Part shown: piece by piece, positions 9,382-13,462 of the stretch
Numbering within the stretch: position 1 is the first letter of the stretch
Layout: every line of letters begins with the position of its first letter
Origin: Zhongshania sp. R06B22
Lineage (GTDB): Bacteria; Pseudomonadota; Gammaproteobacteria; Pseudomonadales; Spongiibacteraceae
Length of the DNA stretch: 64,000 bases
Direction of reading: 5' to 3'
Assembly: GCF_040892595.1 (NCBI RefSeq)
Contig: NZ_JBFRYB010000001.1
Span: 2,852,001-2,916,000, forward strand
Position numbers and translations under genes: made by a program
The notes under the pieces: generated by a model
Seen by the model: only the letters and a program-made list of their open reading frames with translations
Database searches by the model: none
What the model was told of the DNA's origin: nothing

Positions 9382-9989
9382 TGCTCAGCCTCTAAGATAG
9401 CCCGGACTGGAGCATAACTACGCCGATGAATTGGCGTAACACCTAGGGATCTCAAAGCCGCCAAATGGACCTTGGTTGGATACCCTTTGTGACCCGCCAT
9501 GCCATAGCCTGGATATAAAACATCCATTTCAGCCATTTCGCGGTCGCGGATTACTTTTGCCAAAATCGACGCAGCGGCGATAGCAGGCACTCGGCTGTCA
9601 CCTTTGACTACCGCTTGGGCGCGGTAGGGCCAATTTGGCAGACGATTACCATCTACCAACACAAATTCGGGTTGCACTGCCAAACCAGCGACGGCGCGAT
9701 GCATGGCCAATAGACTTGCCTGTAATATATTCAGCTCGTCGATTTCGGCCACCGACGCTCTGGCAATGCAATAACTCAGGGCCTTCTCTTTTATTTCGAT
9801 AAAAAGTGCTTCGCGGCGTTTTTCTGTCAATTTTTTAGAATCATTCAAACCGGAAATAGGTTTTTGAGGATCCAGAATAACGGCGGCCGTCACAACGTCA
9901 CCGCACAAGGGCCCCCGCCCCACCTCGTCAACACCTGCGGTTAATAGCGGAACATCAAACTCGGCAAATAAGTCATCAATCTCAGACAT
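9378..9989 (-). CDS. rnhB: Ribonuclease HII
   Basis: Endonuclease that cuts RNA in RNA-DNA hybrids and starts removal of misincorporated ribonucleotides. The 203-residue protein has the type-2 RNase H signature [14 protein letters not shown] with catalytic D21 and E22. [16 protein letters not shown] (third acid) and [14 protein letters not shown] (fourth acid region) follow. I chose the ATG at 9989 ([11 protein letters not shown]), which overlaps the lpxB stop by eight bases; a longer frame to 10043 would lie deep inside lpxB. It overlaps dnaE by four bases, giving the usual lpxB-rnhB-dnaE coupling. Confidence 0.95.
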
Positions 9990-11133
9990 CCTCGACTCCG
10001 GCGCATTGCAGCACAATGTCAGCAGCGCGCTCGCTAGCTCCACGCGCTAACTGCCGGTGAATAATTTGGAATTCGGCTACCAAGGTGTCGCGGTGATTCG
10101 CATTATTTAGCTGCTCTAATAATAGCGGACCAATCACCTCTGCACACACCTCATCTTGCAATAACTCAGGCACCAATGCTCGCTGCGCTAATAAATTAGG
10201 TAGCGAGAAGAACGGCGTCTTCACCAGGCGAGAAAATATTTGGTAAGACCATTTACCAAATCGATAAGCGACCACCATCGGCCTCTGCAGAAGTAAGGCT
10301 TCAAGACTGGTAGTACCGGACGCCATTAACACCACATCCGACGCCGCCATCACGGTGCGAGACTGGCCAAGCACCACGCGCACTGGTAAGTCCCTAGAAA
10401 GTGTCGCCACCGCCTGCAATATCTGCTGCTTGCGCTCCACATTGGCGGCCGGAATTAAAAATTCAATATTTGGCTGCGCAGACCGCAACCATTGCGCCGC
10501 ATTTAGAAAGGGCTCGATAAGCTGGGCGACCTCCCCACTGCGGCTTCCGGGCAAAATCGCTAGCACCGGATGACCATCCTCAACATCAAGTTCTGTTCTG
10601 GCCTCTGCACGCTGATCATGCAGTGGAATCTGATCTGCCAAGGGGTGGCCCACACAGGTCACCGGAACACCGTGTTCTTGATAGAACTGCTCTTCAAAGG
10701 GAAACAGGGTAAGCATATGATCTACCGCCTTAGCGATTTTCTTCACCCGCCCCTGTCGCCAAGCCCATACCGATGGACTGACATAGTGCAGTGTTTTCAT
10801 ACCACGCTGACGCAGATACAGTTCAATATTTAGATTAAAATCAGGGGAATCAATACCGATAACAATAGCAGGCTGCCAGGTCAAAAAATGCGCCTTTAAT
10901 AAGCGCCGCAGACGCAGCAACTCAGGCAGCCGCTTCAGCGGCTCAACAAGACCCATCACCGACAAGCGGTCCATATCGCACAGACTCCGGCAGCCCTGCT
11001 CGATCATCAGCGGGCCACCCACACCTTCAAAGATGGCACTGGGGTGACGTTGCTTAATTGCGCGAATTAAATCAGCGCCCAAAATATCACCAGAGGCTTC
11101 TCCAGCAATAATACCGATTCGCAATACAGTCAT
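9982..11133 (-). CDS. lpxB: Lipid-A-disaccharide synthase LpxB
   Basis: GT-B glycosyltransferase (family GT19) that joins UDP-2,3-diacylglucosamine and lipid X into the lipid A disaccharide at the inner membrane. The 383-residue product begins [20 protein letters not shown], the canonical N-terminal glycine-rich motif. [23 protein letters not shown] and [20 protein letters not shown] near the C-terminus are also family hallmarks. The start at 11133 follows family alignment; its ribosome binding site is weak. An upstream in-frame ATG at 11178 overlapping lpxA cannot be excluded. Confidence 0.95.
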
Positions 11134-11167
11134 AATATAGCCATTTATCGCGGCCGGATGGTGCGAA

Positions 11168-11971
11168 TTAACGCACAATGCCGCGTTGAGATTGTTTCAA
11201 TGAATCTACCAACAATTGCACTTCGGGGAACTCAGCAGAAATAGGTGCTAACGCCATTAAGGCTTCTTCTACCGTTTTGTTCTGACGATAAATAATTTTA
11301 TAAGCGCGGCGAATGGCCGCAATAGCGTCCGCAGTAAACCCGCGACGCTTTAAGCCTTCACTATTGATGGTCTTTGCTTGCGCGGGTGTACCACTCACGG
11401 TCACATAGGCGGGGACATCTTTACTAATCCCGCAACCAAACCCGGCAAAACTGTGGGCACCAATATGACAAAACTGATGAACAAGTGTGAAGCCGCTTAA
11501 GATAGCCCAATCGCCAACAACCACATGACCGGCCAGCGCTGCATTATTAACGAGAATACAGTTGTCTCCGATCACTGAATCATGACCGACATGCACATAA
11601 GCCATCAGTAAATTCTTATTACCTATAATGGTCTTACCGCGATCTTGAATCGTACCGCGGTGAATAGTGACGCCTTCGCGAATCACATTATCGTCGCCGA
11701 TAATTAGCTCCGTGGCTTCACCCTTATACTTCAAGTCAGGGGTATCATCACCAATAGTCGAAAACTGGTAGATGCGATTATTCTTACCAATTTTTGTTGG
11801 CCCCATCAGCACAACATGAGAGCGAATATCAGAACCTTCGCCGATCTCTACGCCTGCACCCACTATTGTCCAGGGGCCCACTTTTACACCCGCGGCGAGT
11901 ACCGCGCTGGGGTCAATAATCGCGCGGGGATCAACTACTGCGGATGGATGAATATTATCTGTCACTATCAA
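11168..11971 (-). CDS. lpxA: UDP-N-acetylglucosamine acyltransferase LpxA
   Basis: First enzyme of lipid A synthesis: it transfers a 3-hydroxyacyl chain from ACP to the 3-OH of UDP-GlcNAc. The 267-residue protein shows left-handed beta-helix hexapeptide repeats, then the C-terminal helical part after LKRRGF. The catalytic histidine is H130 in [10 protein letters not shown] (E. coli H125). At the acyl-chain ruler position (E. coli G173) I align F178 in [10 protein letters not shown] bulky residue there is known to shorten the chain in Pseudomonas LpxA. It overlaps fabZ by four bases (ATGA). Confidence 0.97.
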
Positions 11972-12408
11972 CGCTGCCGATCAATGCACAAAATGGTTGC
12001 CGAACAGGCCAGTTTATCGTCAACAAATGCCTGGCAATTGAACTTCCACAGCCCTCTACTATCGGATACATACTGCGCTTTTAACACCAACTGATCGCCA
12101 GGTACTACTTGACGTTTAAAACGCGCCTTATCTACCCCGGCAAACATATAGATCGACCCTTCTGAAGGTCTTTTATCCAGTGTTTTAAAGCCCAAAATAC
12201 CTGCGGCCTGAGCCATTGCCTCAATGATCAACACACCCGGCATAATCGGTAAATCCGGAAAATGGCCGTTAAAAAAGTCTTCATTTCCGGTCACGTTCTT
12301 TATAGCAACGATAGATTCTCCGAGTGTTAACTCCAACACTCGATCAACCAACAAGAACGGAAAACGTTGCGGCAGGTATTCCTTTATTTCATTAATGTCC
12401 ATCAGCAT
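11968..12408 (-). CDS. fabZ: 3-hydroxyacyl-ACP dehydratase FabZ
   Basis: Dehydrates 3-hydroxyacyl-ACP to trans-2-enoyl-ACP in fatty acid elongation, competing with LpxA for the 3-hydroxyacyl substrate. The 146-residue hotdog-fold protein has the catalytic histidine in [19 protein letters not shown] and the glutamate in the same helix. The ATG at 12408 is preceded by GAAGG at a seven-base distance. An ATG six bases downstream is the alternative. It begins just after the stop of the decayed lpxD and overlaps lpxA by four bases. Confidence 0.96.
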
Positions 12409-12411
12409 GTC

Positions 12412-12860
12412 TCAGCCTTCACCCTCGTGATTATTCTTTAATCGCTTTTCTGAAAGAGCCAAACGTAAATAAAGCTCACTAAACCGCGCAGCGGTTTTTT
12501 GTCGCACAGCAAATTCAGTCGCTGCGAACGTCCCTGAGTAAAACCCAGACTACACAATCAACTTAGCAATCCAAGCCGACACCGCATTAAAAACGTCTAC
12601 AACACTTGCAATATGAGCACTGTCCACGACCAGTAGATGCACTACCCTCGTTCAGTAAAACTATTGCTGCATCTTTGGCTGTATCCAATCCACCACCTCC
12701 AAGAACTGCGGCAGAATGCGGCGGGCAAGATACCTTGGACGCTAATTTCAAACACAGTATTTGAGAAAAAGTTTAACCAGGATGATTAGACACTACTCAA
12801 TGAGACTAGTCTGCAAGGAGATTCCTGACTGCCTTTTAAAACCAAGTTATTAGGCAGCCA
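12412..12860 (-). pseudogene. lpxD: Degenerate relic of lpxD
   Basis: No intact reading frame lies here, but minus-strand translation shows LpxD pieces in the right order. N-terminal pieces in one frame are KAVRNLLAD (about 12835-12809), VVSNHP (12796-12779), FSQIL (near 12760) and PPHSAAVLG (about 12724-12698); they resemble the family's NPKYRKYLA, VV-NPYLAYARISQ and GIHPSAVI. A C-terminal piece in another frame runs AHI (12618), AKLIV, a TAG stop (12552-12550), SGFYSGT, KTAARFSEL and EKRLKNN, ending in TGA at 12414-12412. It resembles GHIE, TKSI-EPGVYSSGT and the terminal RLK helix. About 450 bp remain of an expected gene of roughly 1020 bp, with stops, frameshifts and lost hexapeptide repeats. 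The position between skp and fabZ is exactly where lpxD belongs. The relic is seen in the sequence; its family assignment rests on my reading by eye. Confidence 0.8.
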
Positions 12861-12864
12861 AGCA

Positions 12865-12892
12865 CTAAGCGAGACTAAACACTCTCGCTTAG
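12865..12892 (-). terminator. Stem-loop after skp, possible weak terminator
   Basis: A perfect 10-bp inverted repeat (CTAAGCGAGA and its complement) with an eight-base loop lies nine bases after the skp stop. There is no strong U-tract on the minus strand, so termination may be partial or the hairpin may protect the 3' end. It stands between skp and the lpxD relic. Confidence 0.5.
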
Positions 12893-12900
12893 ATAATTAT

Positions 12901-13410
12901 CTACTTTGTTTGATTCAATTTATCTGCGACTTTTGCCGTGATATCGAAGCTAACATCAGCATGCAGCACCTGCTTACGCGGCAACAGCAAACCAATATTC
13001 TCTGCCTTGATAAGGTCTGGCAAAATTTGCTGTAGCTTTGGTCCCAGCTCTTGAAGAATAGACTGAGCTTCCTGCTGATTTGCCGCCTCTATTTTACGCG
13101 CAAGGTGCTCGCCATCATCTCGAGCAGTATCAATTTTATTTTTAACAGCCAGACGTTGCTCGGCGCTCAAAATATCAAAATCACGCTGAAACTGCTCAAC
13201 CTGCTTGTCATAATTCTTCTTTAATGCTTCTAGTTCAGAAACATTTTTTTTGTATTCTGCTTGATTGCGCATAGCCGTCAAACGCTTCTTCGCGACATCG
13301 GTATTAAGTACCGCAGCCTCAACATCAAAAACGGCGACTCGGCCTTCTGCCATAGTGCCGCAAGCCCACAATACCATTACTGCCGCCGCGATAACTTTGG
13401 AAAACTTCAT
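12901..13410 (-). CDS. skp: Periplasmic chaperone Skp/OmpH
   Basis: Periplasmic holdase that carries unfolded outer membrane proteins to the BAM complex as a trimer. The 169-residue product has a signal peptide (MKFSKVIAAAVMVLWACGTMAEG, cleavage likely near GTMA). A mature part with the OmpH start GRVAVFDVEAAVL follows, then a long charged coiled-coil arm around residues 45-115. I chose the ATG at 13410, six bases after AGGAG; a TTG six bases upstream is less likely. It lies 52 bp after bamA, as in other gammaproteobacteria. Confidence 0.9.
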   Translation of the reverse strand: MKFSKVIAAAVMVLWACGTMAEGRVAVFDVEAAVLNTDVAKKRLTAMRNQAEYKKNVSELEALKKNYDKQVEQFQRDFDILSAEQRLAVKNKIDTARDDGEHLARKIEAANQQEAQSILQELGPKLQQILPDLIKAENIGLLLPRKQVLHADVSFDITAKVADKLNQTK

Positions 13411-13462
13411 ATACAACTCCTACTGATTATTGTGTTAATAATTAAATTCTTTCAAACAGGGT

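Follow-up and report, generated by a model that had tools for sequence, protein, structure and literature searches.

Most Gram-negative bacteria cannot live without LpxD, and the window analysed here (the whole stretch of 64,000 nucleotides from Zhongshania sp. R06B22) raises the question of what became of this enzyme in a lineage whose LPS operon is otherwise intact and holds only a short interval at the place of lpxD, between skp and fabZ. The initial annotation read this interval as a decayed lpxD, left the choice between a functional lpxD elsewhere in the genome (moved, or replaced by a paralog) and a different way of acylating lipid A, and proposed a genome-wide LpxD search and a comparison with relatives. 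Very probably, a spare and diverged stand-alone LpxD let the operonic gene lapse and decay in this lineage, and would now be its sole LpxD. We refer to the operonic LpxD as LpxD1 and to the stand-alone LpxD as LpxD2; these names are coined here and imply no orthology to the Francisella proteins. The genome containing the window (G000) comprises 3.86 Mb in 7 contigs and is 99.99% complete, and the window sits in a 3.5 Mb contig.

The remains of lpxD between skp and fabZ

The operon and the relic within it were delimited as follows (window coordinates; each profile score is followed by its cut-off):

9982 to 11178, minus strand: lpxB, intact (TIGR00215, 370.2 bits, cut-off 190.25)
11168 to 11971, minus strand: lpxA, intact (TIGR01852, 311.9 bits, cut-off 231.05)
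11968 to 12408, minus strand: fabZ, intact (TIGR01750, 197.6 bits, cut-off 155.15)
12409 to 12565, minus strand: 3' end of the LpxD1 relic (about cds 879-1041), interrupted by one in-frame TAG and lacking 9 nt through a deletion
12566 to 12886, minus strand: probable middle and 5' part of the LpxD1 relic, heavily decayed, with large internal deletions, as placed by end-to-end alignment (about cds 16-157, 520-573 and 814-861 can still be recognised)
12901 to 13416, minus strand: skp, for an OmpH-like chaperone, intact open reading frame with a weak Skp match (31.5 bits, cut-off 237)

The name skp was given because of this weak match together with gene order, since in each of the 19 fetched loci with an operonic lpxD the gene stands between lpxD and bamA. 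The listed open reading frame of lpxB opens at an upstream TTG, and the gene probably starts at the ATG at 11133. Both lpxA and lpxB exceed their curated cut-offs, in line with their earlier description as intact. Measured between coding ends, with the skp stop codon included, the skp-fabZ interval is 495 nt in G000 versus 1049 nt in another Zhongshania genome (G017), so that on balance 554 nt have been lost. The longest open reading frame lying wholly within the gap has 54 codons for amino acids, and one of 68 aa on the plus strand (12224-12430) overlaps its edge. Stops occur in all three coding-strand frames across 12409-12886, and no frame could yield an LpxD protein.

We aligned the interval in a frameshift-aware manner with a profile built from 17 Zhongshania operonic LpxD proteins. 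Positions 12409-12900 scored 88.2, against a maximum of 36.4 for dinucleotide shuffles (n=60) and 23.6 for the opposite strand, which bears out the claim of a decayed lpxD inside an intact LPS operon. At the DNA level, the 3' part scored 71 with LpxD1, compared to 10 with LpxD2 and to a shuffle maximum of 18 (0/300 as good). Over 12412-12565, LpxD1 of G017 has the same base at about three in four of 154 aligned positions, and the match to that genome extends over 222 nt (76.6% identity) and continues into fabZ. Over the last 280 nt, pairwise identity among the intact LpxD1 of six related species is 77-92%, against 60-64% between the relic and these genes. With the gap as query, a DNA search across the genus matched the 3' end of LpxD1 in 5 of the 17 other Zhongshania genomes at E <= 4e-5, and gave nothing under E 0.14 in the remaining 12. 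Read from its sequence, the 495 bp gap represents the ancestral operonic lpxD as a pseudogene at its syntenic place between skp and fabZ (12409-12886), certainly so for the 3' end and probably for the remainder.

Upstream of the clear remnant the evidence differs from section to section. Frameshift-aware local alignment of 12566-12900 was equalled by 1 of 60 shuffles for the whole stretch, by none of 60 for 12566-12760 and by 2 of 60 for 12700-12900. The best single DNA score in each of four subdivisions of 12566-12900 was reached by 7 to 58 of 300 shuffles. With DNA scores summed over six genes, no shuffle out of 300 reached the values of 12566-12760 or 12661-12900, and 19 and 34 of 300 reached those of 12566-12660 and 12761-12900, respectively. 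Aligned end to end with cds 1-879 of LpxD1 from six species, 12566-12900 gave a z of 5.7 (0/400 shuffles as good), against 0.2 for the reverse complements (158/400) and 1.2 for LpxD2, represented by one sequence (45/400). Three local matches, pairing 12739-12879 with LpxD1 cds 16-157, 12665-12718 with cds 520-573 and 12610-12647 with cds 818-858, are collinear with the gene, their exact blocks varying with the reference. The marginal local scores would suit a reading in which these 335 nt are unrelated inserted DNA and not lpxD at all. We consider this quite improbable, since the end-to-end alignment with six LpxD1 genes beat all 400 shuffles and neither of its controls did, the summed DNA scores of two of the four subdivisions beat all 300 shuffles, and the stretch has no second copy in G000 (next match E 0.61). 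An inserted repeat or known RNA was ruled out by this single genomic copy together with an Rfam search of 12300-13000 that returned no match at E <= 0.1.

These alignments also refine the earlier description of the relic. It was correctly located in 12412-12860 and is somewhat larger, at about 12409-12886. Its pieces do follow LpxD order, with PPHSAAVLG falling on the HSGVVIGGDGFG region (window 12665-12718, cds 520-573). The exact family spacing from H to K (AHIAS to AKLIV, aligned with GHIT to SKSI) is recovered without gaps at the DNA level, but the protein-profile alignment prefers a 24-nt insertion there; because the two disagree, the spacing depends on the alignment.

The last bases of the relic are those immediately before the start of fabZ, where the sequence GAGGGTGAAGGCTGAGACATG is the same in G000, G017 and G016. 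Between 11900 and 13600 we found no terminator-like sites (1.6 expected from shuffles) and 4 promoter-like sites (2.7 expected), which is the chance level. Read-through into fabZ-lpxA-lpxB would still be possible, because the sequence before fabZ is kept and the region holds no terminator-like site. Just past the skp stop codon, a perfect inverted repeat with 10-base arms, seen by eye and without a T-run, occupies 12865-12892 and extends into the relic at its 5' end, where decay has gone furthest.

A single intact LpxD gene elsewhere in the genome

To survey LpxD genome-wide, we searched G000 with TIGR01853 (E <= 10), obtaining 20 matches of which one exceeded the cut-off (336.2 bits versus 242.5). 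This match, G000:C1:2353750-2354715, covers profile positions 1-324 of 325 and lies within an open reading frame of 357 aa (2353699-2354772); the second-best match in the genome is the lpxA of the window (84.7 bits, E 6.8e-24). The same protein, LpxD2, scored 402 bits against NF002060 (cut-off 207), and its best relatives in the PDB are the LpxD proteins of P. aeruginosa and E. coli, aligned over nearly their full length. LpxD2 keeps the histidines that align with the catalytic positions 239 and 276 of E. coli LpxD, with the IAHN and NGH motifs aligned ungapped. The position of E. coli Met290, an acyl-selectivity residue, is occupied by Ile in LpxD2 and by Leu or Met in LpxD1 of G017, G016 and G005; we treat this difference as a lead that may bear on selectivity. 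Values of dN/dS for LpxD2 were 0.03-0.07 in the 8 of 17 listed pairs with finite dS, and are rough for G000, where synonymous distance was saturated in 6 of 10 pairs. We see no acceleration of LpxD2 in G000, because its end branch (0.082) resembles that of G005 (0.079).

The branch of the initial annotation in which a functional lpxD exists elsewhere is thus the one that agrees with the genome, as far as a sequence match can tell. We infer that LpxD2 is expressed and active. Since G000 has an intact LpxD gene, an LpxD-free acylation route was rejected; a different acylation of lipid A is also superfluous in view of lpxA and lpxB and of lpxC, lpxK and lpxH, each of the last three with one match over its cut-off in G000. 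Lipid A would probably be made by the ordinary route, perhaps with altered acyl selectivity. The caution that the relic by itself shows loss at the skp-fabZ site only was apt, the pathway being most likely kept through LpxD2.

Distribution and history of the two LpxD genes in Zhongshania

We compared 18 Zhongshania genomes (G000-G017), one per species, using LpxD matches at E <= 1e-40. LpxD1 is present in 17/18 genomes and LpxD2 in 11/18: ten hold both, G000 alone holds only LpxD2, and seven hold only LpxD1, with the limit that a decayed LpxD2 in these seven would escape the threshold. One genome of the sample, G003, is 84% complete with 7% contamination. The comparison with relatives proposed at the outset places LpxD1 between skp and fabZ in all 17 other genomes. 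A tree of BamA, LpxA, FabZ and Skp places G000 as sister to G007 (SH-aLRT/bootstrap 99.2/92) inside a clade of ten species (100/100), the other nine of which all carry both LpxD genes, as does G011 outside this core clade. The loss of LpxD1 is best read as a single event on the G000 branch.

The end branches of G007 are 0.23 for LpxD1, 0.19 for LpxD2 and 0.085 for the operon proteins (0.016-0.052 in the other nine core species), and long end branches in all three protein sets suggest generally faster protein evolution in this species. Fast evolution of its LpxD1 as an omen of loss was rejected, as LpxD2 and the operon proteins are likewise long-branched and the branches show nothing particular to LpxD1. 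Elsewhere in the order, a genome of 4.4 Mb and 100% completeness (G028) had no LpxD above the cut-off (best TIGR01853 match E 1.7e-7, where in G000 the lpxA gene by itself reaches 6.8e-24), and may be without both LpxA and LpxD, that is, without LPS.

In a tree of 63 LpxD proteins, the 11 LpxD2 form one clade (100/100) outside Zhongshania LpxD1; its stem measures 0.82 changes per column, and its placement is tentative, with a risk of long branches meeting. LpxD2 is 43-51% identical (mean 46.9%) to 19 LpxD1 proteins, 17 from Zhongshania and 2 from the sister genus, and the closest LpxD2 genes of other Zhongshania contigs are 81-83% identical to that of G000. Searches for a donor outside Zhongshania gave no protein above 52% identity in a sample of the order (390 genomes, Zhongshania included, E <= 1e-98), 50% at best in a sample of the class (369 genomes, E <= 1e-98) and 47% at best in a scan of genome contigs outside the genus.

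These data bear on whether the intact gene could be the operonic lpxD itself, translocated or recently duplicated. It is indeed the sole intact LpxD found in G000, but its distance from LpxD1 and its separate clade, its coexistence with LpxD1 in ten species, and a relic whose 3' part matches LpxD1 and not LpxD2 make this extremely unlikely, and a translocation of the operonic gene was rejected on the LpxD tree. Of the two origins offered by the initial annotation, a moved gene thus falls away and a distant homologue stands. An intact operonic lpxD concealed by an assembly or sequencing error can be practically dismissed: even in the best-kept part of the relic about one site in four is different from G017, about 554 bp are missing, the interval lies inside the 3.5 Mb contig, and the assembly yielded no intact LpxD1.

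Our preferred account, the lapse of the operonic lpxD beside a spare LpxD2, would run as follows. The ancestor would have held a second, highly diverged, stand-alone LpxD2, as ten other species still do. Because LpxD2 would perform the same N-acylation of UDP-3-O-acyl-GlcN as the operonic enzyme, selection on the operonic lpxD could have lapsed, in the G000 lineage alone, and the gene would then have gained a stop, small indels and large deletions. LpxD2, which adjoins ppsA, is now the only intact LpxD found in G000. We infer that the presence of LpxD2 preceded and permitted the operonic loss, an order taken only from the distribution.

How LpxD2 came to its present places is a separate matter. 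Apart from ppsA, the names of its neighbours were assigned by reading sequences. LpxD2 adjoins ppsA in five genomes (G000, G005, G007, G008 and G015). Its neighbour in G002 and G010 is an elongation-factor-G-like gene, with ppsA about 16 and 18 kb away. In G003 and in G016/G017 it has other surroundings with one neighbour gene in common with the ppsA-type region, as would be expected if a single home region had been rearranged. The G011 copy is remote from ppsA, with panD and acs on either side; acs directly follows panD without LpxD2 in 15 of the 17 other species, and is absent from the fetched stretch in G012 and G013. The ppsA region and its vicinity therefore account for most sites, the one clear exception being G011 with its panD-acs site. 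Trees of LpxD2 do not pair G000 with G007, and this pairing is not rejected (p-AU 0.162).

Transfer of LpxD2 within the genus into G011 is favoured, because its LpxD2 is closer to that of the core species (79-88% identity) than are its LpxD1 (62-67%) and operon proteins (73-75%). These identities and the panD-acs site speak against LpxD2 being an old gene, inherited vertically within Zhongshania, lost in seven species and never passed between species. Such a history nevertheless agrees with an AU test in which a clade of the ten core sequences, excluding G011, is not rejected (p 0.176), with near-saturated synonymous sites between G011 and the core (dS 1.7-2.1 in the three pairs listed), and with the ppsA region as the apparent usual home, the scattered sites fitting a rearranged single locus; we hold it to be plausible, with the balance leaning somewhat against it. 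It alters the history of LpxD2 and leaves the reading of the relic untouched. A bolder proposal is that LpxD2 is a travelling single-gene replacement within Zhongshania, mobile alone, altering lipid A acyl chains and making the operonic gene dispensable. We think this rather unlikely; if true, G000 would be a natural enzyme swap whose effect on lipid A composition could be predicted.

Comparison with known two-LpxD systems

The genus offers a series of species with LpxD1 only, with both genes, and one with LpxD2 only and visible remains of lpxD, which permits asking whether a second LpxD fully replaces LpxD1 or changes lipid A. It also illustrates that an operon without lpxD must not be equated with a missing pathway. 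A literature search on lpxD duplication, lpxD loss and Zhongshania lipid A returned no description of this case in the opening lines of abstracts.

Genomes with two LpxD are already known from Francisella and Leptospira; Zhongshania adds a new case, in which G000 has lost the operonic copy. The two F. novicida enzymes differ in temperature and chain length, LpxD2 transferring 16-carbon chains at 18 C and LpxD1 those of 18 carbons at 37 C (PMC4688374). Francisella has two LpxD genes, each under its own locus tag, in the same genome, and ten Zhongshania species likewise carry two full-length genes; unlike Francisella as described there, where both genes are present, G000 is without its operonic copy. 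Two annotated lpxD genes are reported for all Leptospira genomes except the P2 subclade (PMC10248169), a likeness in copy number with a different phylum, and that account mentions no relic. A further study describes an lpxD duplication in Gloeobacter violaceus and, in Yersinia pestis, the persistence of the lipid A acyltransferase paralog lpxP after loss of the original lpxL (PMC3087551). As in that pair, the original acyltransferase of G000 is gone and a paralog stays, but lpxL/lpxP concerns an acyltransferase that acts late and whose paralog is much closer, whereas in G000 the remaining gene is a distant LpxD. What Zhongshania adds to these systems is that the surviving enzyme is very distant from the one lost, and that at least one species holds LpxD2 at a clearly separate site.
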